A stretch of DNA of 10,320 nt, from positions 1-10,320 of the forward strand of contig CATLAS010000013.1 of the NCBI GenBank assembly GCA_949878535.1, given 5' to 3'. Made by a program: the position numbers and the translations under genes. The notes under the pieces were generated by a model. That model did not search any database. It was not told the DNA's origin and saw only the letters and a list, made by a program, of their open reading frames with translations. This document shows, piece after piece, positions 1 to 10,320 of the stretch. The stretch is from an uncultured Eubacteriales bacterium (GTDB lineage Bacteria > Bacillota > Clostridia > Oscillospirales > CAG-272). Position 1 is the stretch's first letter. The number at the start of each line of letters is the position of its first letter.

Positions 1-912
1 GAGGTGCTGCCTCGGAGCGTACCACCAGAGCGGATTGTTGATTTTCTCCGGGAAGAGATAAACCGTGACAATTATATAGTTGTTGAATTAAAACGTCCTT
101 CTGGAAATGAAAAAGGATATTGGATCCATGAACAACTTATATTCGGATACAGCGATACGGACCGTGTATTTTATGGAAGTGCGTTAGATAATAAGACCGG
201 TTCCTTTGTGGAAATAAGGATATCGTACGAGACGCTCCTTTCCTATTATTTCGACAGCTATACTTATTTTCAGGCGCCGGAAAATAAAAGCGAATATATA
301 TACTGGTCACGGAGCAATTTTCTGATTTCCCGGATGCGGTTGCGTGAGGATTACGTTCCCCACGGATGGGTGTATGATATGCTACAAAATATTGTAATTG
401 AAGCAGATGGGAAAGCATATACGGCGGTTCAATATGATGGGGACAGGAATGTGATAGGTGAAAATAAAATGTACACCGGCGCGGCGTGCATCCTTGCCGC
501 AGAGCAGCATATGGAAAAATTTCTCCACGACCGACATTTTATTGAGAAGGATACGGATATAGAATATAACGACCTGTTTGGACAGCTGTCGTATCACCTT
601 GCCAAAGGATTTTATAAGTTGTATGAACACAGAAAGATGATACTGAATTCCCTGCGCTGTCTTTATACATTGGCAGAAATCCCCGCCTATAATGCGGAAG
701 GAAATGTAGCAGAATATGCCCAGTGCTGCAAGGATATGGACATCTTTTATAAGAAGGCACTCAAATTCCATAAGCTGCGGGATTGGAGTATTCTTGAAGA
801 GCTGAAACAGAATTTCTCCGGCCAGTATAAGAAAGAACACAGGATATTGAATCAATTGGTGTTGGAAATCAAGGATATCTGGCATAGCAGCCAATTACAG
901 GAACTTATATAA
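1..912 (+). CDS. BtrH_N / C39-like cysteine-fold protein, 5' partial
   Basis: The reading frame is open to the first base of the window, so the true start and N-terminus lie upstream; the GTG at 4 is only an in-frame codon. The visible part carries the second half of a papain-like (C39/BtrH_N) fold: a His in the stretch WIHEQLIFGYSD followed by VFYGSALDN, and then a segment like the 'is.eel..ay' helix of that family. The rest (about residues 130-302) is predicted helical. The catalytic Cys would be in the missing N-terminal part. It is a diverged paralogue of the protein at 1993-2853. Known relatives of BtrH_N include butirosin BtrH, which transfers an acyl group from a carrier protein; a similar role here is inference from the carrier proteins downstream. 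It could equally be a non-catalytic or peptidase member. The gene ends 14 bases before the next start, so it is probably in the same operon. Confidence 0.6.
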   Translation, partial: EVLPRSVPPERIVDFLREEINRDNYIVVELKRPSGNEKGYWIHEQLIFGYSDTDRVFYGSALDNKTGSFVEIRISYETLLSYYFDSYTYFQAPENKSEYIYWSRSNFLISRMRLREDYVPHGWVYDMLQNIVIEADGKAYTAVQYDGDRNVIGENKMYTGAACILAAEQHMEKFLHDRHFIEKDTDIEYNDLFGQLSYHLAKGFYKLYEHRKMILNSLRCLYTLAEIPAYNAEGNVAEYAQCCKDMDIFYKKALKFHKLRDWSILEELKQNFSGQYKKEHRILNQLVLEIKDIWHSSQLQELI

Positions 913-926
913 AATGTTAGAAAGGT

Positions 927-2006
927 ATGGAAATAAAAATGTGTGATGGAAATTTGCTTTTTCAAATTTGCGATCCGTTTTTAGAAAGCAGCACCGGTGT
1001 GGACTGCTCCGGGAATCAGGAAACGCTGTTTGGGCAGATTGTTTTGAATAAAATGGTAGGGATTGCCGCGGGAAATATACAAATGCCCTCTCTCAACCCG
1101 GAAATCCGCAAAGCAATACAGTTACTACATAAAAATTATCTGTATAAAAGCACTGTTTTCAAAAAACATCTAAAGCATCTGGCAAATATACTTGTCGATG
1201 CGGATTTTCCCTATGCGCTGCTGAAGGGTGCCTTTCTTTCTGCCAATATATATGAAGCCGGGCAGCGCACCTCTAATGATATTGATATCCTGATCAGCGC
1301 GGAACATGTGTCACGGCTGCAAAAGCTGCTTCTCCAAAACGGCTTTGTTCAGGGGTTTGCCCAAAAGGACAACACCATCCGGCAGGCAACCAGAAGAGAA
1401 ATTATAGATGCAAAAATGAACACCGGCGAAACAGTTCCTTTTGTGAAAAATATTATGGGAGAGCTGTTGGAGGTGGATATCAATTTCTCCCTCGATTTTA
1501 AAACCTCCGCCGGAAATACTGTTGCGGCTTTTCTGGAGAACACTGTCCAGGCAGATTTTGAAGATGTGCATTTCAAAGTGCTGGATCCAGTTCATTTTCT
1601 GCTCCATCTTTCCTGCCACTTATATAAGGAAGCTACTACCTATGACTGGGTTGCCCGGCGGCGGGATCTGATGCTGTATAAGTTTTGCGATATTTATATG
1701 TTTATCCGGAAGTATGCAGATACCGACTATTTTGCAAAGCTGATACAGGAAATCGAAAGGTACGGGCTTACAAAGGAATGTTATTACACGTTTGAAAATA
1801 CTTCTGAAATATATCCGACATTAAACCGGATCCAGGGATTTTTCGAACTGAAAGAAGCAATCCGCCCTGCGTTGGTAGACTTTATGAAGCAGATTCTGCA
1901 TCCCCGTAAAAAAAAGCTGTTCTCCTATAGCATGTCCTTTACAGATTGGTTTTTCTGCCCCGACCGGATCGCGCAGTTGAAGGAGATCCCTTATGCGGAA
2001 CATTGA
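927..2006 (+). CDS. NTP_transf_5-type nucleotidyltransferase-fold protein
   Basis: The 359-residue protein matches the pattern of the uncharacterised nucleotidyltransferase family NTP_transf_5 (pol-beta/MNT-like fold). It has a LLKGAFLSANIY segment near residue 99, the metal-binding NDIDILI motif with Asp118 and Asp120, and a C-terminal helical region with HFLLHLSCHLYKE and DLMLYKFCDIYMF that is typical of the family. Length fits the usual 350-380 residues. Family members often occur in peptide and other natural-product clusters; the transferred nucleotide and acceptor are not known. Start choice is uncertain: ATG 927 is only one base after AAAGG, whereas the in-frame ATG at 939 has a long spacing from it. 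It overlaps the next gene by 14 bases, which indicates translational coupling. Family assignment is fairly secure; activity is unproven. Confidence 0.75.
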   Translation: MEIKMCDGNLLFQICDPFLESSTGVDCSGNQETLFGQIVLNKMVGIAAGNIQMPSLNPEIRKAIQLLHKNYLYKSTVFKKHLKHLANILVDADFPYALLKGAFLSANIYEAGQRTSNDIDILISAEHVSRLQKLLLQNGFVQGFAQKDNTIRQATRREIIDAKMNTGETVPFVKNIMGELLEVDINFSLDFKTSAGNTVAAFLENTVQADFEDVHFKVLDPVHFLLHLSCHLYKEATTYDWVARRRDLMLYKFCDIYMFIRKYADTDYFAKLIQEIERYGLTKECYYTFENTSEIYPTLNRIQGFFELKEAIRPALVDFMKQILHPRKKKLFSYSMSFTDWFFCPDRIAQLKEIPYAEH

Positions 2007-2853
2007 TATAGACCTGGATCGGTTCAATTCCCTGTACAGTTTGTCCTGTGTGGAAAGCTATATGCTGTATATACTGGATGCAAATCAATATCATTTTCAG
2101 CATTTGTATGCACAAAGCTACGCAGGTATTGCGGAAATTTTACAGTATTTTCTATGGGATAAAAAAGTGTATGCCTATTACGATGGGGTGCCTCGGTTAC
2201 AGAGAACGGCAATCGCCCACGGTGTGCTTGCCATGCAGACCGTACAGTGCTCGGACATCTGCACAGACCCGGATTATGACTTTTTCATGCTGAAGCTGCA
2301 CCCGGAGTATATAAAGAAAACCTATGGTGCGGCGGCGTGGCGGGACGACCATTATGTGCTCCTGACAGGATATGACGATAGGCACCGGACGTATATCAAT
2401 GACAGTCCCCGGGATTACAGAACCCTCACCTGCGGGGAGCTGGAGCAAGCGTATGCCGGAAGTATGATCAAGCTGAAGCTGCTGGGGGATTTGTCAGACC
2501 GGTCTGCGGATTTGCTGCTTGAAGATTTTTTAACCCGGATAAGGGACTCTCTTAACACAGATGTTATTATTCCCATAGAGGATGGTATCGCCGCAAGAGA
2601 TGCACTGGCAGTTTTGCGCATACTCAGGCGTAGAATGTATGTATACTGTACACAGTATATATCCTGCGATTTTATGAAAGCGTACCTACGGAAATTGGAC
2701 AAATGTTTTTCTGCAATAGAATATATGCGGCTGCGCCGCAGTATGGATTTTTCCAAACTGGCAGAGATGTTTCAGATGGTGCAGCACCAAGATATGGAAA
2801 TTTTAGACATCATAAAAAGAAAGATGGGTGAACAATATGGACAGAACATTTGA
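1993..2853 (+). CDS. BtrH_N / C39-like cysteine-fold acyltransferase or peptidase
   Basis: The 286-residue protein has a papain-like layout. Cys19 is in SLSCVESYM near the N-terminus, His120 in DDHYVLLTGYDD, and Asp137 (or Asn136) in TYINDSP. These are the positions expected for the catalytic Cys-His-Asp/Asn of C39 and BtrH_N proteins. Residues about 160-286 form a helical C-terminal region, as in the paralogue at 1-912. There is no signal peptide, transmembrane segment or ABC transporter part, which argues against a C39 bacteriocin exporter peptidase. With two carrier proteins and a ligase immediately downstream, a BtrH-like transfer of a carrier-bound acyl group is the best inference; cleavage or hydrolysis is an alternative. 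ATG 1993 is preceded by AAGGAGA at 1980-1986 with good spacing, inside the end of the upstream gene. The 3' end overlaps the carrier-protein gene by 17 bases. Confidence 0.65.
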   Translation: MRNIDIDLDRFNSLYSLSCVESYMLYILDANQYHFQHLYAQSYAGIAEILQYFLWDKKVYAYYDGVPRLQRTAIAHGVLAMQTVQCSDICTDPDYDFFMLKLHPEYIKKTYGAAAWRDDHYVLLTGYDDRHRTYINDSPRDYRTLTCGELEQAYAGSMIKLKLLGDLSDRSADLLLEDFLTRIRDSLNTDVIIPIEDGIAARDALAVLRILRRRMYVYCTQYISCDFMKAYLRKLDKCFSAIEYMRLRRSMDFSKLAEMFQMVQHQDMEILDIIKRKMGEQYGQNI

Positions 2854-3076
2854 AATCATGCAGATCATCGCATCGGTATCGATCGTGTCGGCGGAAGATA
2901 TTTGCCTGGAGGATACTCTTGCTTCTATCGGAATTGATTCCCTGAAAAAAGTAGAGCTGATTGTTGCGCTGGAGGATATGCTGGACATAACCTTTGAAGA
3001 TGCGGATTTGGATCCTGCAAAGCTGACCTGTGCTGGGGATGTGGTTGATCTCACCCAGCGGTATTTGCCGGAATAG
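2837..3076 (+). CDS. Acyl carrier protein (first of two)
   Basis: This small acidic protein of 79 residues is a free-standing acyl carrier protein. The phosphopantetheine site is Ser35 in the motif SIGIDSLKKVEL, followed by the usual IVALEDMLDITFEDADL helix and loop. It should carry an acyl group as a thioester on a 4'-phosphopantetheine arm in the cytoplasm. ATG 2837 is preferred because GGTGA at 2827-2831 sits five bases upstream; a GTG at 2828 in the same frame would add three residues but overlaps that ribosome site. The gene starts inside the preceding gene and ends 13 bases before the ligase, so it is coupled to both. It may receive its acyl group from that ligase. It is distinct in sequence from the second carrier at 4531-4794, so the two may have different partners. 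Confidence 0.9.
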   Translation: MDRTFEIMQIIASVSIVSAEDICLEDTLASIGIDSLKKVELIVALEDMLDITFEDADLDPAKLTCAGDVVDLTQRYLPE

Positions 3077-3089
3077 GGATGCTGTTGTT

Positions 3090-4544
3090 ATGTGGGACTT
3101 TATCAAAAACAGTCTGACCCGACATCCGGCGTCCAAGGTTTTATCGGGAGATTGCGTGATGTCGTATCAGGCGCTGCTGGACGCTGCAGTACTCCATGGG
3201 AATAGCTTAAAATCCCGGCTCAAACCCGGTGCAAAATGTGCAATCCTATGTGATACAGGACTGCATACTGCCATCGGTATTCTTGCCTGCTGGGCTGCAG
3301 GGCTGACCGCCATTCCTCTGTCAAAAAATTACGGCAAAGAGCACTGTGCAAAAATCCTTAACTGTACCGAACCAGATATTCTCTTTACAGACAACAGCAA
3401 CTGCACATTCAAATATACATATCATTTAGTATCAAAAGCTTTTACAGGAAATCTCGGTTCCATACAGCCAGATCCTACTTTATCCGATGTTGCTTTGATT
3501 ATGTGCACCTCCGGAACCACTGGTATGCCCAAAGGCTCTATGATCACGAAAAAAGCACTGCAAAAAAATGTGCAGGCGGTGGCTCAGTATTTTTCCATCG
3601 GTCAAACGGATACAATTCTGATTGCCCGCCCCCTGTATCATTGTGCAGTTCTCACGGGGGAATTTCTGATCGCCCTGTCCAAAGGCGTGCAGATTGCTTT
3701 CTTTAATGATGCCTATAACCCAGTAAATGTGATTTCCAGTATCAAGAAATACAGTGCGACAACGATCTGCGGTACGCCCACCTTGCTCGGACATATTGCC
3801 CGGCTTATCAAACCGGACAGAGAGAACAGCATCCGAAAAATTGCAGTAAGTGGGGAATGTCTCAGTGAAAGCGGGGCAAAAAAGATCCGCAGCGCATTCC
3901 CGGATGCAGAAATATACAGCGTTTATGGATTGACGGAGGCTTCTCCCCGGGTTTCCTATCTTCCTCCCTCGGATTTTGATAGATTTCCTGAATCGGTTGG
4001 TATTCCCATAGAAGGTGCGGCAATCAAAATTTTGGACACACAGATGAAAACGGAGTTGCCGGCAAACGTCCCCGGGATCGTAATGGTTTCCTCACCATGC
4101 TTAATGAAAGGATATTACCGGGAACCAGCATTGACAGAGAAAACGGTAAAAGACGGCTGGCTGAACACCCGCGATATGGGATACAAAGATGAAAAGGGAT
4201 ATTTATATATCCTAGGGCGGGCAGATGATATGCTAATCAAAGCAGGCATGAATATTTACCCTCGGGAAATTGAAAATCCAGTAAGGGGACTGCCTGAAGT
4301 AGCAGAATGTATGGCATATGGGAAAGAGAGAGCATCGGGACAGGAAATCATTTTGGATGTTGTTTTGCAAAAGGATTATAAAGACATCCGCAAAAAAGAA
4401 TTTGCGCGCAAGCTTGGCATGGTACTTCCCTCTTATCTGATGCCGGCGGAAGTTCGTATTGTGGATACAATTCCCCGGAATGCTTCCGGGAAATTGGTTC
4501 GCAACAGGAGAGAGGGATACGGGACGCAGAATGATGAAATATGA
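3090..4544 (+). CDS. Stand-alone AMP-forming acid ligase (ANL superfamily)
   Basis: The 484-residue protein has the core motifs of ANL adenylating enzymes: the P-loop TSGTTGMPKG (residues 140-149), YGLTEASP (279-286), the ribose-binding Asp362 in TRDMGY, the hinge GRADDMLIKAGMNIYPREIE (376-395), and the C-terminal catalytic Lys468 in PRNASGKL. It should adenylate a carboxylic acid with ATP and transfer it to a thiol. The region PLYHCAVLTGEF looks like acyl- or aryl-acid ligases and lacks the FD...E signature of amino-acid A domains. A non-amino acid substrate (fatty, aryl or short acid) is therefore inferred. Lying between two carrier-protein genes, it most likely loads a carrier rather than free CoA. 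An upstream in-frame ATG at 3030 would run far into the carrier gene; ATG 3090, ten bases after a weak AGGGA, gives the expected N-terminus. The end overlaps the second carrier gene by 14 bases. Confidence 0.9.
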   Translation: MWDFIKNSLTRHPASKVLSGDCVMSYQALLDAAVLHGNSLKSRLKPGAKCAILCDTGLHTAIGILACWAAGLTAIPLSKNYGKEHCAKILNCTEPDILFTDNSNCTFKYTYHLVSKAFTGNLGSIQPDPTLSDVALIMCTSGTTGMPKGSMITKKALQKNVQAVAQYFSIGQTDTILIARPLYHCAVLTGEFLIALSKGVQIAFFNDAYNPVNVISSIKKYSATTICGTPTLLGHIARLIKPDRENSIRKIAVSGECLSESGAKKIRSAFPDAEIYSVYGLTEASPRVSYLPPSDFDRFPESVGIPIEGAAIKILDTQMKTELPANVPGIVMVSSPCLMKGYYREPALTEKTVKDGWLNTRDMGYKDEKGYLYILGRADDMLIKAGMNIYPREIENPVRGLPEVAECMAYGKERASGQEIILDVVLQKDYKDIRKKEFARKLGMVLPSYLMPAEVRIVDTIPRNASGKLVRNRREGYGTQNDEI

Positions 4545-4794
4545 ACAGAAAATCAGGGAAATCATCGGTGGGACAATAGAAACGGATATTCCCATTGAAA
4601 CGTATGATGCAAATGGAGATTTACGGTCTATCGGAATGAACTCAATCACGTTTATATCTATGGTGGTTGCCATTGAAGACGCGTTTTCCATCCGGTTCCC
4701 GGATGAAAAGCTGATTTTGGAAGAGGCAGGAACCATTGCGGTAATCCATCAGATTGTAGAAGACAGTATTTTGAAGAAACAAGCTTTTGAGTAA
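4531..4794 (+). CDS. Acyl carrier protein (second of two)
   Basis: This 87-residue protein is a second free-standing acyl/peptidyl carrier protein. The attachment site is Ser38 in LRSIGMNSITFI, followed by MVVAIEDAFSIRFPDEKLI, the normal helix II to loop pattern. The residue before the serine is Asn instead of the common Asp, which is unusual but tolerated in some free-standing carriers of non-ribosomal pathways. ATG 4531 and ATG 4534 are adjacent and either may be used. Both lie inside the 3' end of the ligase gene and no strong ribosome site is visible, so translation is probably coupled to the ligase. The protein differs clearly from the first carrier (2837-3076), suggesting a different partner or a relay. 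The gene ends 14 bases before the kinase gene. Confidence 0.88.
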   Translation: MMKYEQKIREIIGGTIETDIPIETYDANGDLRSIGMNSITFISMVVAIEDAFSIRFPDEKLILEEAGTIAVIHQIVEDSILKKQAFE

Positions 4795-4808
4795 AAGGAG
4801 AATATTAC

Positions 4809-5459
4809 ATGAAACTGAATTTGAAACCGAATGCCCATCCTGGTTGTCTGATCAGCTTTTGCGGGTTGGACGGATGCGGAAAAACCACGCAGATCTCTCT
4901 GCTGAAGGAATTTCTGGAAAATCAGGGAATTATGCCTGTACTGACGAAGCAGCCTACGGAATCTGTACGGCAAACAGATATTTTCCGTACATATATGGAT
5001 AATCCCAATCACACGATGTATGATTATAGAGCGTTGTCTCTGCTGTGTGCATCGGATCGCTTACAGCATACAAACAAGGAAATTGTACCGAGACTGCAGC
5101 AGGGAGACACGATCATATCCGATCGGTATTTTTATTCCTGCATTGCCAACCTGCATGCCCGCGGGTACACAGAAGATCGGTGGATTTATGAAATCGCAGA
5201 GCATATTATTAAACCGGACATAGCGTTTTTTCTGGATACAGAAGTGGAAACCGCGGTAGCCCGTGTGCGCAGCAGAGAAAGTGAAAAAAATAAATATATT
5301 GATATGGACTTGCAGTACCGTTTGCAGGAAAAGTATATGGAAATTGCCGCAGATAACGGGGGAATTGTGATCGGCGCCGGCTTGTCTGTAGAAGAAGCAG
5401 CGCAGGTTGTCCAATCTGCCGTTATCGGGAAAATAATGTGTGGTGCCAAAGGGGGGTGA
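4809..5459 (+). CDS. Thymidylate-kinase-like P-loop kinase
   Basis: The 216-residue protein resembles dTMP kinases. It has a Walker A GLDGCGKTT (residues 19-27), the DRYFYS motif (Asp105, Arg106, Tyr107), FFLDTEVETAVARVRSRE like the family's 'fLdv.pe.a..R...R' strand and LID start, and a matching C-terminus. Length matches ordinary Tmk. Its place at the end of a ligase/carrier operon, rather than near housekeeping holB or DNA-repair genes, suggests a pathway-specific paralogue that phosphorylates a nucleotide or another intermediate; this is inference. A second housekeeping tmk elsewhere in the genome would support that reading. ATG 4809 follows AAAGGAG (4794-4800) with good spacing. The stop codon lies inside a run GGGGGGTGA that is itself a strong ribosome site for the short frame that follows. 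Confidence 0.8.
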   Translation: MKLNLKPNAHPGCLISFCGLDGCGKTTQISLLKEFLENQGIMPVLTKQPTESVRQTDIFRTYMDNPNHTMYDYRALSLLCASDRLQHTNKEIVPRLQQGDTIISDRYFYSCIANLHARGYTEDRWIYEIAEHIIKPDIAFFLDTEVETAVARVRSRESEKNKYIDMDLQYRLQEKYMEIAADNGGIVIGAGLSVEEAAQVVQSAVIGKIMCGAKGG

Positions 5460-6629: not shown

Positions 6630-7985
6630 ATGACTGCCTGGAATAAAATAAAAATATTTACTGCTTTATGTATTTGTTTTTCTATCGGTTTATGCGCTTG
6701 CTCTGATATAGAACCCGGCGCAGCTGAGGTCAATGAGACTAAGTCCGGAATTATAGCAGAACTGGATCAGTTTGTAATGCAGCCTGACAATATAGATGCA
6801 TTGCTGACCTTTGACGGCGAGATAAAAACCACGGCTTCTACATACAATATCACTTATGGGGAAGACAATCAACGAAAGATGTATGTATTTTCCAATCCTG
6901 TAAGGGAATACGCAAAAGGTTCGTTTGCTGCAATCAATAAAGAAATTTTTTCTATGGAAGAACACACGTTCGGTGTATCGAACAGTATTTATTCGGCACA
7001 GTTTACAGCAGAAAAAATCACTGTAAGCAACGGTAGTAGAAACATTGCAGTATTTCCACAGAACCACTGTGAAAGTATTGAGAAGGAGACCTTTCAAAGC
7101 TTATACAAATCAGATGTAGAAGCTGTAGTTTACAAAGGAAAAGATGTGGAATTGTATTGTATGCCAACTGCTGCCGGTGTCGCAATAGAAATACATTATC
7201 TGAAAAAGCCCGCTGGTGCATTGGAATGGAAAGTGGATATAGATGATTGTACATATACAAACGATTCTGCGGGTTATATCAAACTTATGAAAGGAAAAAA
7301 TAATGCAGCAGTAATATATCCAGGCATTGCAGCGGATAACAGCAATATGATATATTATCACGATTCTGCAAGCATTCTAAGAAAAAACGGAGAATTATAT
7401 TTACATATCGGAACGGCAAGTTGGGCGGATCAAACGGTGGAATATCCAGTAAAATCAATGGTACATTTTGATTTTTATACAGAAAAAATGTTTTTTGATT
7501 CCTCTGTTTATCAAAGCGCACCCAAGCAGAATTCACTTTTAAATAATATCAGCATTTTTGATGAATCCGGCGAGGACTGCTCCGGATATACATACCTTAA
7601 ATGCAATCTGGAATCTATCACGCCTGCTGACAAGAACTTGCTCGGATCTATCCGTTATCATTTTTATGTGGCAGCGCTTACCAATGCGATGGATTTGGAA
7701 GCATATCTTGTGCCAGATACTTGGTGCAGCTTTACTGTGAATTGGGAAACAAAGCCAGCATATACAGAAAAAATCGGTGAGGTTCATGTGGATGCCGCCG
7801 GATATTATTATTTAGATATGACGGAATTTGCCAAAAACTATATTGAACATGCCGGGGAGTATACTGCTGAATGCAGTATTGTGCTAAAGGCAAAGGATAA
7901 CAGCACCGGAATTGTTATAGCAGCTTCTGCTGACAATACCATAGCACCACCCTTCTTTGAAGTAGATTACGCATTAGAAAATTAA
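6630..7985 (+). CDS. Lipoprotein with DNRLRE-like C-terminal domain
   Basis: The 451-residue product starts with a lipoprotein signal peptide whose lipobox LCAC places the lipidated Cys at residue 24. Residues about 55-130 (AStYNITYGEDNQRKMYVFSN-type pattern, then 'ykGsfaaInkei') resemble the region that precedes DNRLRE domains in wall-associated RHS proteins, where a short beta segment ends in a 'w..Idn.l' motif. Residues about 300-451 fit a DNRLRE/CBM96-like beta-sandwich: WCSFTVNWETKPAYTEK, then GYYYLDMTEFAKNYIEHAGEYT, then a final PPFFEVDY. Such domains in known proteins support surface adhesion or carbohydrate contact. Here there is no RHS repeat or toxin, only a membrane-anchored stand-alone version. 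ATG 6630 follows GAGGT at 6617-6621. Export and anchoring are well supported; domain naming is by pattern only. Confidence 0.7.
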   Translation: MTAWNKIKIFTALCICFSIGLCACSDIEPGAAEVNETKSGIIAELDQFVMQPDNIDALLTFDGEIKTTASTYNITYGEDNQRKMYVFSNPVREYAKGSFAAINKEIFSMEEHTFGVSNSIYSAQFTAEKITVSNGSRNIAVFPQNHCESIEKETFQSLYKSDVEAVVYKGKDVELYCMPTAAGVAIEIHYLKKPAGALEWKVDIDDCTYTNDSAGYIKLMKGKNNAAVIYPGIAADNSNMIYYHDSASILRKNGELYLHIGTASWADQTVEYPVKSMVHFDFYTEKMFFDSSVYQSAPKQNSLLNNISIFDESGEDCSGYTYLKCNLESITPADKNLLGSIRYHFYVAALTNAMDLEAYLVPDTWCSFTVNWETKPAYTEKIGEVHVDAAGYYYLDMTEFAKNYIEHAGEYTAECSIVLKAKDNSTGIVIAASADNTIAPPFFEVDYALEN

Positions 7986-8582: not shown

Positions 8583-8761
8583 AAAATAGTGAGAGAAATG
8601 GAACGTCTTTCCGACTATATAAGTAAGGATAATTTATTTCCATAGAATTATGCCTGTAAGAAGGAGGAGATACCAAGGTTCTATTAAGGCTGGATCCTGC
8701 GATTGGCAGCAACCGAGTGAAGTATCTTTCTATAAAATAATAAAGGTGGGAGAAATAGTAT
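8583..8761 (+). other. 179-base gap with an orphan ribosome site
   Basis: This stretch has no ordinary gene. It contains AAGGAGGAG at 8661-8669, a near-perfect ribosome site, with no ATG, GTG or TTG at useful distance. One frame is open from 8660 and reads DTKVLLRLDPAIGSNRVKYL and three more residues from 8669 to a TAA ending at 8740. It could be an eroded small gene or a gene that lost its start codon. The last bases hold the ribosome site (GGGAG, 8748-8752) of the lipoprotein gene at 8762. No convincing promoter was found; TTGGCA at 8703-8708 has no -10 partner at normal spacing. Confidence 0.4.
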
Positions 8762-8900
8762 ATGTGGAAAAAATTTATTAGTTTGCTCTTAACAATTGCT
8801 TTTGTTACAGCAGCAGCCGGTTGCGCCGATCCGGAAGCAAGCATACCCGATGATACAAATAACGTTCCTGCAGACGAGGATACTGTAGATTCGTCTGCAG
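8749..8900 (+). repeat. Direct repeat, copy A (lipoprotein leader)
   Basis: These 152 bases align without gaps to 10130-10281, offset 1381 bases, with 12 mismatches counted by eye (about 92% identity). The repeat begins at the ribosome site, covers the whole signal peptide, lipobox and acidic linker, and stops abruptly near codon 47. Beyond it the two genes share little. About half of the mismatches are silent third-base changes. Confidence 0.85.
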
Positions 8901-9403
8901 ATATAGAATACCATTGGTCAATACATGAACTGTACATGACCTTTACAGAATTTCTTGCAGAAAGCGATTGCGCCGCCATTGGATCATTTGTATCATACGG
9001 AATTGACGAAGATGGATATGCAGATTACGTTTTTAAAATATCAGAAGTGCTGCGGGGTGAAATCCTGGAAAATGAGATTCATGCATATTCTAAAATAGGA
9101 CATTCAATTGTTCAGAGAGATGTTCCGGGAGAGTCTGTAGCTGAGTATGATGTAGGCGGGGATATTTATACGCCCGGCGAGGAGTACGTTTTGATTCTTT
9201 CCAAGAATGACTCTCTCTTTAACGAACGTCCTATATACAGCATACATGCGGGTGTGTTTATCCCGGTGAAGGATACCGGAGCCAGCACAATGTACGGCAT
9301 GCCTTTAACAGAGGTCACAGGAAGAAATATAGCTTCTATCAAACTGATGATTCAAAACGCATCCATGATGCGGGCACAGAAAAAAGAATCGGATTGTATG
9401 TGA
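8762..9403 (+). CDS. Lipoprotein with possible NTR/TIMP-like (OB-fold) domain
   Basis: The 213-residue product has a lipoprotein signal peptide ending in the lipobox AAGC (lipidated Cys21), an acidic linker rich in Asp, Glu and Pro (about residues 22-49), and one globular domain. That domain shows 'esDCAAIGSFVSYG', 'YADYVFKISEVLRGE' and 'TPGEEYVLILS'. This order resembles the beta-strand pattern of bacterial NTR/TIMP-like OB-fold proteins ('a.vv.g.v', 'y.f.v.evlkG', 'G..Yll'). The likeness is by eye, without the TIMP disulfide set. It should be anchored on the outer face of the membrane. The gene is 78 bases upstream of a matrixin-like metalloprotease, and a second copy follows that protease, so a role as its inhibitor, partner or self-protection factor is a reasonable but unproven inference. 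ATG 8762 follows GGGAG at 8748-8752. Confidence 0.6.
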   Translation: MWKKFISLLLTIAFVTAAAGCADPEASIPDDTNNVPADEDTVDSSADIEYHWSIHELYMTFTEFLAESDCAAIGSFVSYGIDEDGYADYVFKISEVLRGEILENEIHAYSKIGHSIVQRDVPGESVAEYDVGGDIYTPGEEYVLILSKNDSLFNERPIYSIHAGVFIPVKDTGASTMYGMPLTEVTGRNIASIKLMIQNASMMRAQKKESDCM

Positions 9404-9481: not shown

Positions 9482-10129
9482 ATGTCATTTGTCTCGGCAA
9501 TTCTTGTGACTGTCATATTGCAAATACAGGCAGGAGCCAGTACAGGAACGCTGACATATTGGGAAGATCGCGAAAGCACTACGGTATATAGATGGGGAGA
9601 TACATACCGTTCTATCCCGCAGCCTATTTATGTGAATCAACTCAATGGGAATGATAAGTTTCACTTTATGAAAGGATTTGATCATGCATTTATTCAATGG
9701 GGCAATGCTTTAAACCGGACTTTCGTAAAATCTGCATCGCCAACAACAAGCATAAAATATTACGGCGGAACAAAGGAGCAGTTGGAATCAATTGGTCTTT
9801 TTAAAGACATAGGAGGTGAACTTGGCAGGACTGATTTGGTTGGAAGCTATGAAGGCACATGGAAATATGGTTCTTATAACAGAACTGTGAAAAGAATGAA
9901 TAGTGCACGCGGATATATAGTTGATTGCAGCTGGAGGGATATCGTCGGCTATAAAAATACATGTACACATGAATTTGGGCACGCAATGGGATGGGCAGGC
10001 CATACAACCGATAAAGATTCTGTTTCTGTTATGTATAAGAATGATAATTACAACAGGATTTATTTATCCAGTATAGATAAGCGCCATTTACAGCAGATTT
10101 ATGGAATAAAAATCAATAATTATAAATAA
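9482..10129 (+). CDS. Secreted matrixin-like zinc metalloprotease
   Basis: The 215-residue product has the metzincin zinc-binding motif HEFGHAMGWAGH (His163, Glu164, His167, His174) and a Met-turn with Met184 in SVSVMY, as in M10 matrixin-type peptidases. About 140 residues precede the motif and about 40 follow, normal for a minimal catalytic domain with no propeptide cysteine switch visible. The N-terminus is hydrophobic and ends in AGA-S near residue 19, a likely signal peptidase site, so the enzyme is probably exported. ATG 9482 gives a signal peptide with no basic residue and only four bases after AAGGAT. A CTG at 9458, nine bases after AAGGA, would add LKGILRIG and supply Lys and Arg (see findings). 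It sits between two related lipoprotein genes, its likely functional neighbours. Protease class is secure; substrate is unknown. Confidence 0.85.
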   Translation: MSFVSAILVTVILQIQAGASTGTLTYWEDRESTTVYRWGDTYRSIPQPIYVNQLNGNDKFHFMKGFDHAFIQWGNALNRTFVKSASPTTSIKYYGGTKEQLESIGLFKDIGGELGRTDLVGSYEGTWKYGSYNRTVKRMNSARGYIVDCSWRDIVGYKNTCTHEFGHAMGWAGHTTDKDSVSVMYKNDNYNRIYLSSIDKRHLQQIYGIKINNYK

Positions 10130-10281
10130 GGAGAAATAGTGTATGTGGAAAAAAAGTATCAGCTTGCTCTTAACAATTGCTTTTGTTACAGCAGCAGCCG
10201 GTTGCGCCGCCCCGGAAGCAAGCATACCCGATGATACAAACAACGTTCCCGCAGACGAGGACACTGTGGATTCGTCTACAG
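10130..10281 (+). repeat. Direct repeat, copy B (lipoprotein leader)
   Basis: This is the second copy of the 152-base repeat at 8749-8900, starting at the ribosome site directly after the metalloprotease stop codon. It encodes the same signal peptide, lipobox and linker, with changes such as Phe5 to Ser and Asp23 to Ala. Confidence 0.85.
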
Positions 10282-10320
10282 GTGAAGAATTATATAGTAT
10301 ACGGCATGAATTGTATATAA
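10143..10320 (+). CDS. Second leader-sharing lipoprotein, 3' partial
   Basis: ATG 10143, preceded by AAGGAG (10128-10133), opens a frame that runs off the window end after 59 codons. Signal peptide, lipobox AAGC (Cys21) and acidic linker are nearly identical to those of the lipoprotein at 8762-9403. After about residue 46 the sequences diverge, though HELY is kept at the same position and length (RHELYI against IHELYM). It is therefore a paralogue whose mature domain is expected to be related but distant. The gene begins 13 bases after the metalloprotease stop, so the two are probably co-transcribed. The rest of the protein is not visible, so its fold cannot be judged. Confidence 0.85.
   Translation, partial: MWKKSISLLLTIAFVTAAAGCAAPEASIPDDTNNVPADEDTVDSSTGEELYSIRHELYI

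Follow-up and report, generated by a model that had tools for sequence, protein, structure and literature searches.

A conserved seven-gene operon of an uncultured Eubacteriales bacterium with a predicted non-modular, free-carrier thiotemplated pathway

A seven-gene operon on a complete contig

We analyzed contig CATLAS010000013.1 of an uncultured Eubacteriales bacterium of the gut (assembly GCA_949878535.1). This stretch of 10,320 bases, hereafter the window, is one entire contig (G000:C13; genomes, contigs and loci are numbered G, C and L) of a genome that is 67% complete. Open reading frame (ORF) calling and comparison with Pfam recovered the seven genes named in a preliminary description of this DNA, here A to G, all on the + strand:

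Gene A, 1..912, + strand: cysteine-fold protein of CcbD/BtrH type (C39A subfamily), truncated at its 5' end by the contig edge (ORF, family alignment and profile match)
Gene B, 927..2006, + strand: NTP_transf_5 nucleotidyltransferase (PF14907, E = 2.1e-30, over the cut-off)
Gene C, 1993..2853, + strand: protein with the fold of carrier-dependent amide synthases; C19, H120, N136/D137
Gene D, 2837..3076, + strand: first carrier protein (ACP1), IGIDSL (PF00550, E = 9.3e-8)
Gene E, 3090..4544, + strand: stand-alone AMP-forming acid ligase (PF00501, E = 9.1e-61; PF13193, E = 2.7e-10)
Gene F, 4531..4794, + strand: second carrier protein (ACP2), IGMNSI (PF00550, E = 1.1e-8)
Gene G, 4809..5459, + strand: thymidylate-kinase-like P-loop kinase (Thymidylate_kin, E = 7.4e-36; TIGR00041, 120.8 bits)

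As the window is a complete contig whose left end is base 1, gene A lacks its start. Gaps of 14 bases separate A from B and F from G, and a gap of 13 bases separates D from E. B and C overlap by 14 bases, C and D by 17 or 26 (start codon ATG 2837 or GTG 2828), and E and F by 14 or 11 (ATG 4531 or ATG 4534). The overlaps of 14-17 bases and the single 13-base gap given in the preliminary description were reproduced; 14-base gaps number two, not about three as it had given. Promoter-like sites in the window were at chance level (27 versus 27.4 expected); terminator-like sites (19 versus 9.1 expected) lay in many cases inside genes and were not used as evidence.

The gene set is conserved in related and named genomes

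We surveyed 97 related genomes using ligase E (E ≤ 1e-60), NTP_transf_5, the kinase (E ≤ 1e-40), the DNRLRE-like protein SEC7 and RHS as queries, and compared the positions of the ligase, NTP_transf_5 and kinase places by hand. The ligase was found at 17 places in 12 genomes and NTP_transf_5 at 64 places in 46 genomes; NTP_transf_5 adjoins 16 of the 17 ligase places, the one exception being a 3.6-kb contig. The kinase has 18 places in 13 genomes, and at 15 of them such a ligase is no more than about 5 kb away. From these two associations, chance co-location is very unlikely. The other kinase places comprise a kinase-carrier-C39a-SEC7-RHS string on a contig without a ligase (G009:C14) and, in G001 and G016, kinases that stand alone.

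We then considered named genomes, whose loci are the best 80 of 391 ligase relatives. Ligase and NTP_transf_5 occur together in 70 of these 80 loci, representing 64 different genomes by a hand count of accession prefixes. These are mostly metagenome-assembled genomes of Clostridia, and they include Paenibacillus xylanexedens, Halonatronum saccharophilum and a Margulisbacteria genome; no kinase was seen in P. xylanexedens or H. saccharophilum. The cluster of P. xylanexedens DSM 21292 (L044) has two carriers, a C-type enzyme and a pair of ABC genes. In a subset of 62 loci with at least 4 kb of upstream sequence, from which five outgroup ligases were left out, we found NTP_transf_5 in 60, any C39-fold protein in 55, the kinase in 51, the main carrier in 51 (a count that leaves out other carrier clusters), CYTH in 28, a helix-turn-helix (HTH) protein in 25 and an ATP-binding cassette (ABC) protein in 17, with gene-calling losses behind some of the absences. 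Carriers were counted with a custom ORF caller and hidden Markov models built from the same loci, and gene-calling misses occur (the kinase of L037, some carriers). Across both surveys the set is conserved, in agreement with the earlier proposal that the genes act together.

Single loci deviate, yet three layouts recur. The first is HTH-NTP_transf_5-kinase-carrier-C39a-ligase-CYTH-SEC7. The second is ABC-ABC-NTP_transf_5-kinase-C39c-carrier-ligase, followed by CYTH, a second carrier and other genes in some loci; the window belongs here, because its gene C is a C39c protein. The third, in Paenibacillus and Chengkuizengella (for example L099, L101, L103 and L106), is carrier-ABC-5'-nucleotidase-BtrH_N protein-carrier-ligase-NTP_transf_5-kinase-pyridoxal phosphate (PLP) decarboxylase-ATP-grasp, its families having been checked on L101 and L106 proteins and, for the decarboxylase, on its relative from the outgroup locus L114. 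The relatives add CYTH, ABC exporter, DNRLRE and RHS genes that the preliminary description did not mention. No ABC or CYTH gene is among the genes of the window, which is cut at base 1; an ABC exporter is present in 10 of the 19 loci with C-type enzymes. The CYTH protein, tested from relatives' loci, matches PF01928 (E = 5.9e-19); among solved structures, BH2851 and GBAA_1210 are the closest to it. The window's own genome carries a second, paralogous cluster (L019, G000:C12:1-10946) arranged HTH-NTP_transf_5-kinase-carrier-C39a-ligase, with SEC7 at C12:2352-3476.

Downstream of the core in L057, at about 10883-14655 of a contig shared with L028, we noted a protein that by eye is radical-SAM-like, together with a carrier and an ABC transporter. 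To us these genes bring peptide maturation systems to mind; TIGR04069 is a weak match of gene F (E = 0.03).

Gene C has the fold of CcbD and CtaG

Neither A nor C matched any Pfam family at E ≤ 0.1, and hence neither matched PF14399 (BtrH_N). In structure comparison, the whole-length matches of gene C were solely CcbD (best), AziU3 (second best) and CtaG. This restricted set of matches speaks against C and A acting as thioesterases or peptidases in the release or editing of carrier-bound chains rather than in amide formation, a reading that we regard as very improbable. Within the gene C family, C19, H120 and N136 are each conserved in 16 of 18 members and D137 in 14 of 18, and window C has all four. 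Its profile aligned to an alignment including BtrH_N-positive sequences with a probability of 46 (E = 2e-4), and a search of 5.8 billion proteins with the same profile, by a method that reaches near relatives only, returned 11 matches, none named and none with a Pfam family.

The gene A profile matched the C39a family over 320 columns (probability 97.3, E = 1.9e-11) and the alignment including BtrH_N-positive sequences through the C-terminal helices only (probability 95.8). The catalytic-cysteine region of A falls outside the contig; the conserved histidine, in ..WIHEQLIFGY, is present. The label 'BtrH-like' given earlier to both proteins therefore holds for C by fold and fails for it by Pfam, and for A, whose cysteine-bearing part is missing, it comes solely from the family profile. 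From these comparisons, the closest model for C would be CcbD/CtaG rather than BtrH_N proper.

The C39a proteins of other loci form a largely cysteine-less family: none of the 23 rows of their alignment (A4) has a cysteine at positions 14-20. One member outside that alignment (L071) has a cysteine near position 19, and several A4 rows have an unconserved cysteine a few residues further on.

Two carriers accompany the cysteine-type enzyme

Both carrier serines are intact, as noted previously (IGIDSL in D, IGMNSI in F), and the serine of D is kept in 55 of 55 cluster members, window included. Relatives of carrier F are found in two-carrier loci and, as part of a single protein with a ligase, in the ligase-carrier fusions of L036 and L037. 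Counting the window, there are 19 C39c loci. In 14 of them, two or three carriers lie no more than 6 kb from the ligase; the other five have a single carrier, and of these, three (L093, L095, L108) end at most 130 bases past the ligase and two (L046, L053) lack the cysteine. By comparison, 37 of 38 C39a loci without C39c have one carrier and the remaining locus has none. Two or more carriers thus occur in 14/14 cysteine-type C39c loci versus 0/37 C39a loci (Fisher p = 8e-13, with the five one-carrier C39c rows and the zero-carrier row left out, and with related rows that are not independent). As two carriers accompany the cysteine-type C39c enzyme, and as CtaG has likewise been proposed, in the part of the source consulted, to act between the carriers CtaH and CtaE (PMC6772006), the acceptor is probably held on the second carrier where a cysteine-type enzyme is in use.

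Ligase E retains most adenylation motifs

In an alignment of 13 ligases (A1), motifs A3, A5 and the A10 lysine of ligase E are intact. The preliminary description, which had called the ligase motifs intact, needs amending at motif A7 near residue 362, where the window has GWLNTRD and L021 has GWLNTHD, against TGD in the other 11 ligases. At the site of Asp235 in amino-acid domains, ligase E has PLYHCAVLTGE, a stretch that we take to be acyl-ligase-like. Its best NCBIfam match is PRK06187 (256 bits, cut-off 476).

A plasmid or phage origin was considered and rejected: at E ≤ 1e-80, none of 72,556 plasmid records matched ligase E, and viral contigs gave it two distant matches only (24-25% identity).

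The nucleotidyltransferase and the kinase

Gene B scores 106.6 bits against PF14907 (cut-off 31.2), and its residues K100, G101, R114, D118, D120 and D184 are conserved in 68 of 68 cluster members, window included; because these residues are kept, gene B is probably an active enzyme. We take D118, D120 and D184 to be the pol-beta catalytic carboxylates. A sequence search of the PDB with gene B gave chance-level matches only, and a literature search on PF14907/NTP_transf_5, with most subscription papers outside its coverage, found nothing.

Gene G lies above the cut-off for dTMP kinases (TIGR00041, 120.8 versus 83.25 bits) and could be an ordinary enzyme of this kind that sits in the operon by happenstance. 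Two genomes fit this explanation: G024 (97% complete) is without another PF02223 protein at E ≤ 1e-5, and the window's own genome has only two operon copies. We nevertheless hold it to be improbable, given that 15 of the 18 kinase places are near a ligase, that a separate Tmk is present in 6 of the 7 operon-bearing genomes over 90% complete, and that the operon kinases form a group separate from 13 other Tmk rows, with a motif of their own (ANL.ARG; consensus of gene G DRYFYSCLANLRARG), in a tree whose long branches make its deep part unsure. Six Paenibacillus-type kinases sit further off in this tree, also on long branches. Tmk proteins presumably have AYQG at the motif position, an assumption to which the HK rows in part attest.

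The solo operon-type kinases at L140 (G016:C1, 9989-10663) and L141 (G001:C31, 9815-10561) are 58-59% identical to G and have the same surroundings, with neighbors that by eye are ThiF/ThiG- and kinase-like, without the remaining cluster.

The seven proteins were also compared with known anti-phage defence systems using PADLOC, and this candidate was rejected: B gave weak AbiEii matches (best E = 0.0012), G matched P-loop models (PDC-M51B, 1.4e-13; VakA, 1.6e-10; AriA, 0.004), and the other five gave none.

DNRLRE and RHS proteins near the operon

One gene further downstream has relatives among the loci:

Gene I, 6630..7985, + strand: CBM96/DNRLRE protein whose start, by eye, resembles that of a lipoprotein (PF24517, E = 1.5e-8; DNRLRE_dom, E = 1.8e-10)

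By phmmer and profile comparison, gene I homologues adjoin core genes in L036, L037, L065, L090, L091 and L092. Three groups are related to one another: gene I of the window, CBM proteins encoded at other loci, and SEC7 from HTH-type loci. Two RHS proteins also match the CBM profile, through their N-terminal part. These proteins raise the alternative that the operon is a protein-modification system, which would place an acyl or nucleotide group on a DNRLRE/CBM96 or RHS protein of the same genome. In its favor, SEC7 occurs at 13 places in 10 of the 97 genomes, 10 of them adjoining a ligase or kinase, and RHS immediately follows SEC7 in L039, L040, L050, L056, L060, L142 and L144. In the genomes sampled, operon and RHS clearly co-occur. 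With a cut-off of E ≤ 1e-90, picked after inspecting the list (20 genomes at 1e-20), RHS relatives are found in 9 of the 97 genomes, and the ligase is present in 8 of these 9 (p = 3e-8, uncorrected for ancestry). Within the window's genus (17 genomes), 7 have operon and RHS, 1 has RHS only (G001, 61% complete, with a solo kinase) and 9 have neither (p = 4e-4, likewise uncorrected). Against this alternative, 7 of the 9 strong RHS places in the genus do not adjoin the operon (in two cases the contig is about 5 kb long), SEC7 or CBM lies within 6 kb in just 25 of 80 loci, an RHS gene is found anywhere in just 16 of 82 loci, and SEC7 also occurs without the core (G024:C2, G052:C11). The post hoc RHS cut-off detracts from it further, and the ABC exporters and ligase-carrier fusions of relatives favor a small molecule. 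On balance we judge protein modification to be quite unlikely.

A wider scheme, to which we attach a very low probability, is a widespread maturation system in which a carrier-borne acyl group and a nucleotidyl or phosphate group (from NTP_transf_5-kinase, in some loci with CYTH) would be placed on DNRLRE/RHS proteins; the exporter form would yield a free small molecule, and in the HTH form a cysteine-less CcbD-fold enzyme and one carrier would modify the RHS partner.

Two further loci were noted. A C39c-carrier-C39A-SEC7-RHS string, with no ligase on that stretch, lies at 3361-12879 of L144 (G006:C32), and a C39d-like protein (87 bits) with a radical-SAM-like protein (by eye) lies at 1149-2998 of L151 (G003:C13), a few kb from an operon-distant RHS gene.

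In the phmmer comparison among loci, H, K and L had no relatives and J had one weak match (E = 0.0018). Genes K and L were rejected as conserved parts, their BLASTP matches to L020 neighbors having E values of only 2.6 and 0.012. A direct repeat of 189 bases, 86% identical (8749-8937 and 10130-10318), by which the start of gene K seemingly recurs at the right contig end, suggests a tandem paralogue of gene K. A Matrixin-like protein (PF00413, E = 1.8e-7) is encoded at 9482-10129, and an L020 cluster protein has a similar HE..H motif (BLASTP E = 0.012).

A proposed pathway and its main alternative

We propose, with a probability of about 0.6, that the operon encodes a non-modular thiotemplated pathway in which E loads an acid onto D and C forms an amide with an amine that is probably held on F. 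Ligase E would adenylate a carboxylic acid and load it onto carrier D. Enzyme C, as its computed fold and residues suggest, would move the acyl group onto its own cysteine and then to an amine, most likely on carrier F, a transfer modelled on that proposed for CtaG between CtaH and CtaE. The product of gene A, of related fold, could perform a second transfer or release, and B and G may add a phosphate or nucleotidyl group to the acceptor or the product, as their conserved active-site residues hint; the jobs assigned to B and to G in the pathway are guesses. An ABC exporter would export the product and would, in the window, sit past the cut edge. That an acid is activated, loaded onto a carrier and moved on by a cysteine-fold protein had been put forward in the preliminary description; the resemblance in fold between C and both CcbD and CtaG suggests this scheme, with the reaction being a prediction.

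Several results weigh against this proposal. Gene C is just 5-11% identical to CcbD, AziU3 and CtaG, and a PDB sequence search with its profile does not recover them. AziU2-U3 of azinomycin biosynthesis forms an azabicycle, a cyclising reaction that differs from the intermolecular amide formation proposed for C, and AziU3 is the second-best match. The PDB matches of the ligase profile are ambiguous on substrate, with a gramicidin synthase amino-acid module (253 bits) ahead of feruloyl-CoA and o-succinylbenzoate-CoA ligases. No adenylating enzyme for carrier F is present in the window, which is cut upstream; L036 and L037 have a ligase-carrier fusion. No kinase was detected within 6 kb at 11 of the 62 loci (L037 is a gene-calling miss, and the L035 kinase is about 10 kb away), and a C39-fold protein was not seen in 7 of 62. 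Finally, the correlation between carrier number and cysteine ignores common descent, L046 and L057 have another carrier 6.8-6.9 kb off, just past the 6-kb limit, and L106, scored as C39a, also has a C39e enzyme.

The best structural match of C also admits a lincosamide-like pathway, in which a free amino sugar or amino alcohol would be activated by G and then B (phosphate, then nucleotide) and joined to the acyl group by C, with the second carrier serving another step. As far as the consulted part of the source goes, CcbD receives an acyl group on its cysteine and delivers it to the amine of a thio-octose derived from a GDP-sugar (PMC12945683). The conserved nucleotidyltransferase residues of B would suit such a route. 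Set against these points, the core genes are without sugar-building enzymes, we know of no TMK-like sugar kinase, and the presence of two carriers with C would be left unexplained. We consider the lincosamide-like route unlikely.

Comparison with known systems

A literature search, made mostly without subscription papers, found no such cluster, in line with the earlier statement that no described pathway has exactly this set. Within the literature searched, which included few subscription papers, a nucleotidyltransferase-kinase pair beside such amide enzymes, including with CYTH and a carrier or with RHS, was not found. The gene family may yield gut metabolites not yet described, and the operon offers a setting in which NTP_transf_5 might be assigned a job.

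Neither A nor C matches the PF14399 family of butirosin BtrH, which moves an acyl group from a carrier to an amine. The Paenibacillus-type loci do have BtrH_N matches (L106, 5.1e-15), together with ATP-grasp and PLP decarboxylase genes, a combination that we take to be the butirosin side-chain set. With respect to the exosortase-A-associated ligase/decarboxylase set, E matches TIGR03098 at 210.7 bits (cut-off 592.35) and the L114 outgroup decarboxylase matches TIGR03099 at 363.1 bits (cut-off 478.45), both below the cut-off.

As CcbD, CtaG and BtrH show, bacteria can make amides from free carriers and dispense with modular synthetases, and few such pathways have known products. In lincosamide synthesis (CcbD/LmbD), CcbD joins proline to a thio-octose and has glutamate as its third residue; C is about 10% identical, and the other genes differ. 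With the closthioamide pathway of Ruminiclostridium cellulolyticum (CtaG, CtaE/CtaH), the window shares two free carriers, a stand-alone ligase and a CtaG-like transferase. The ATP-grasp protein, thioamide synthetase (CtaC) and transglutaminase of that pathway are absent from the scanned genes of the window, whose contig is cut at base 1, and the consulted portion of the closthioamide source names no NTP_transf_5, TMK-like or CYTH protein. The cluster adds variation to the free-carrier amide-forming pathways of closthioamide and the lincosamides.

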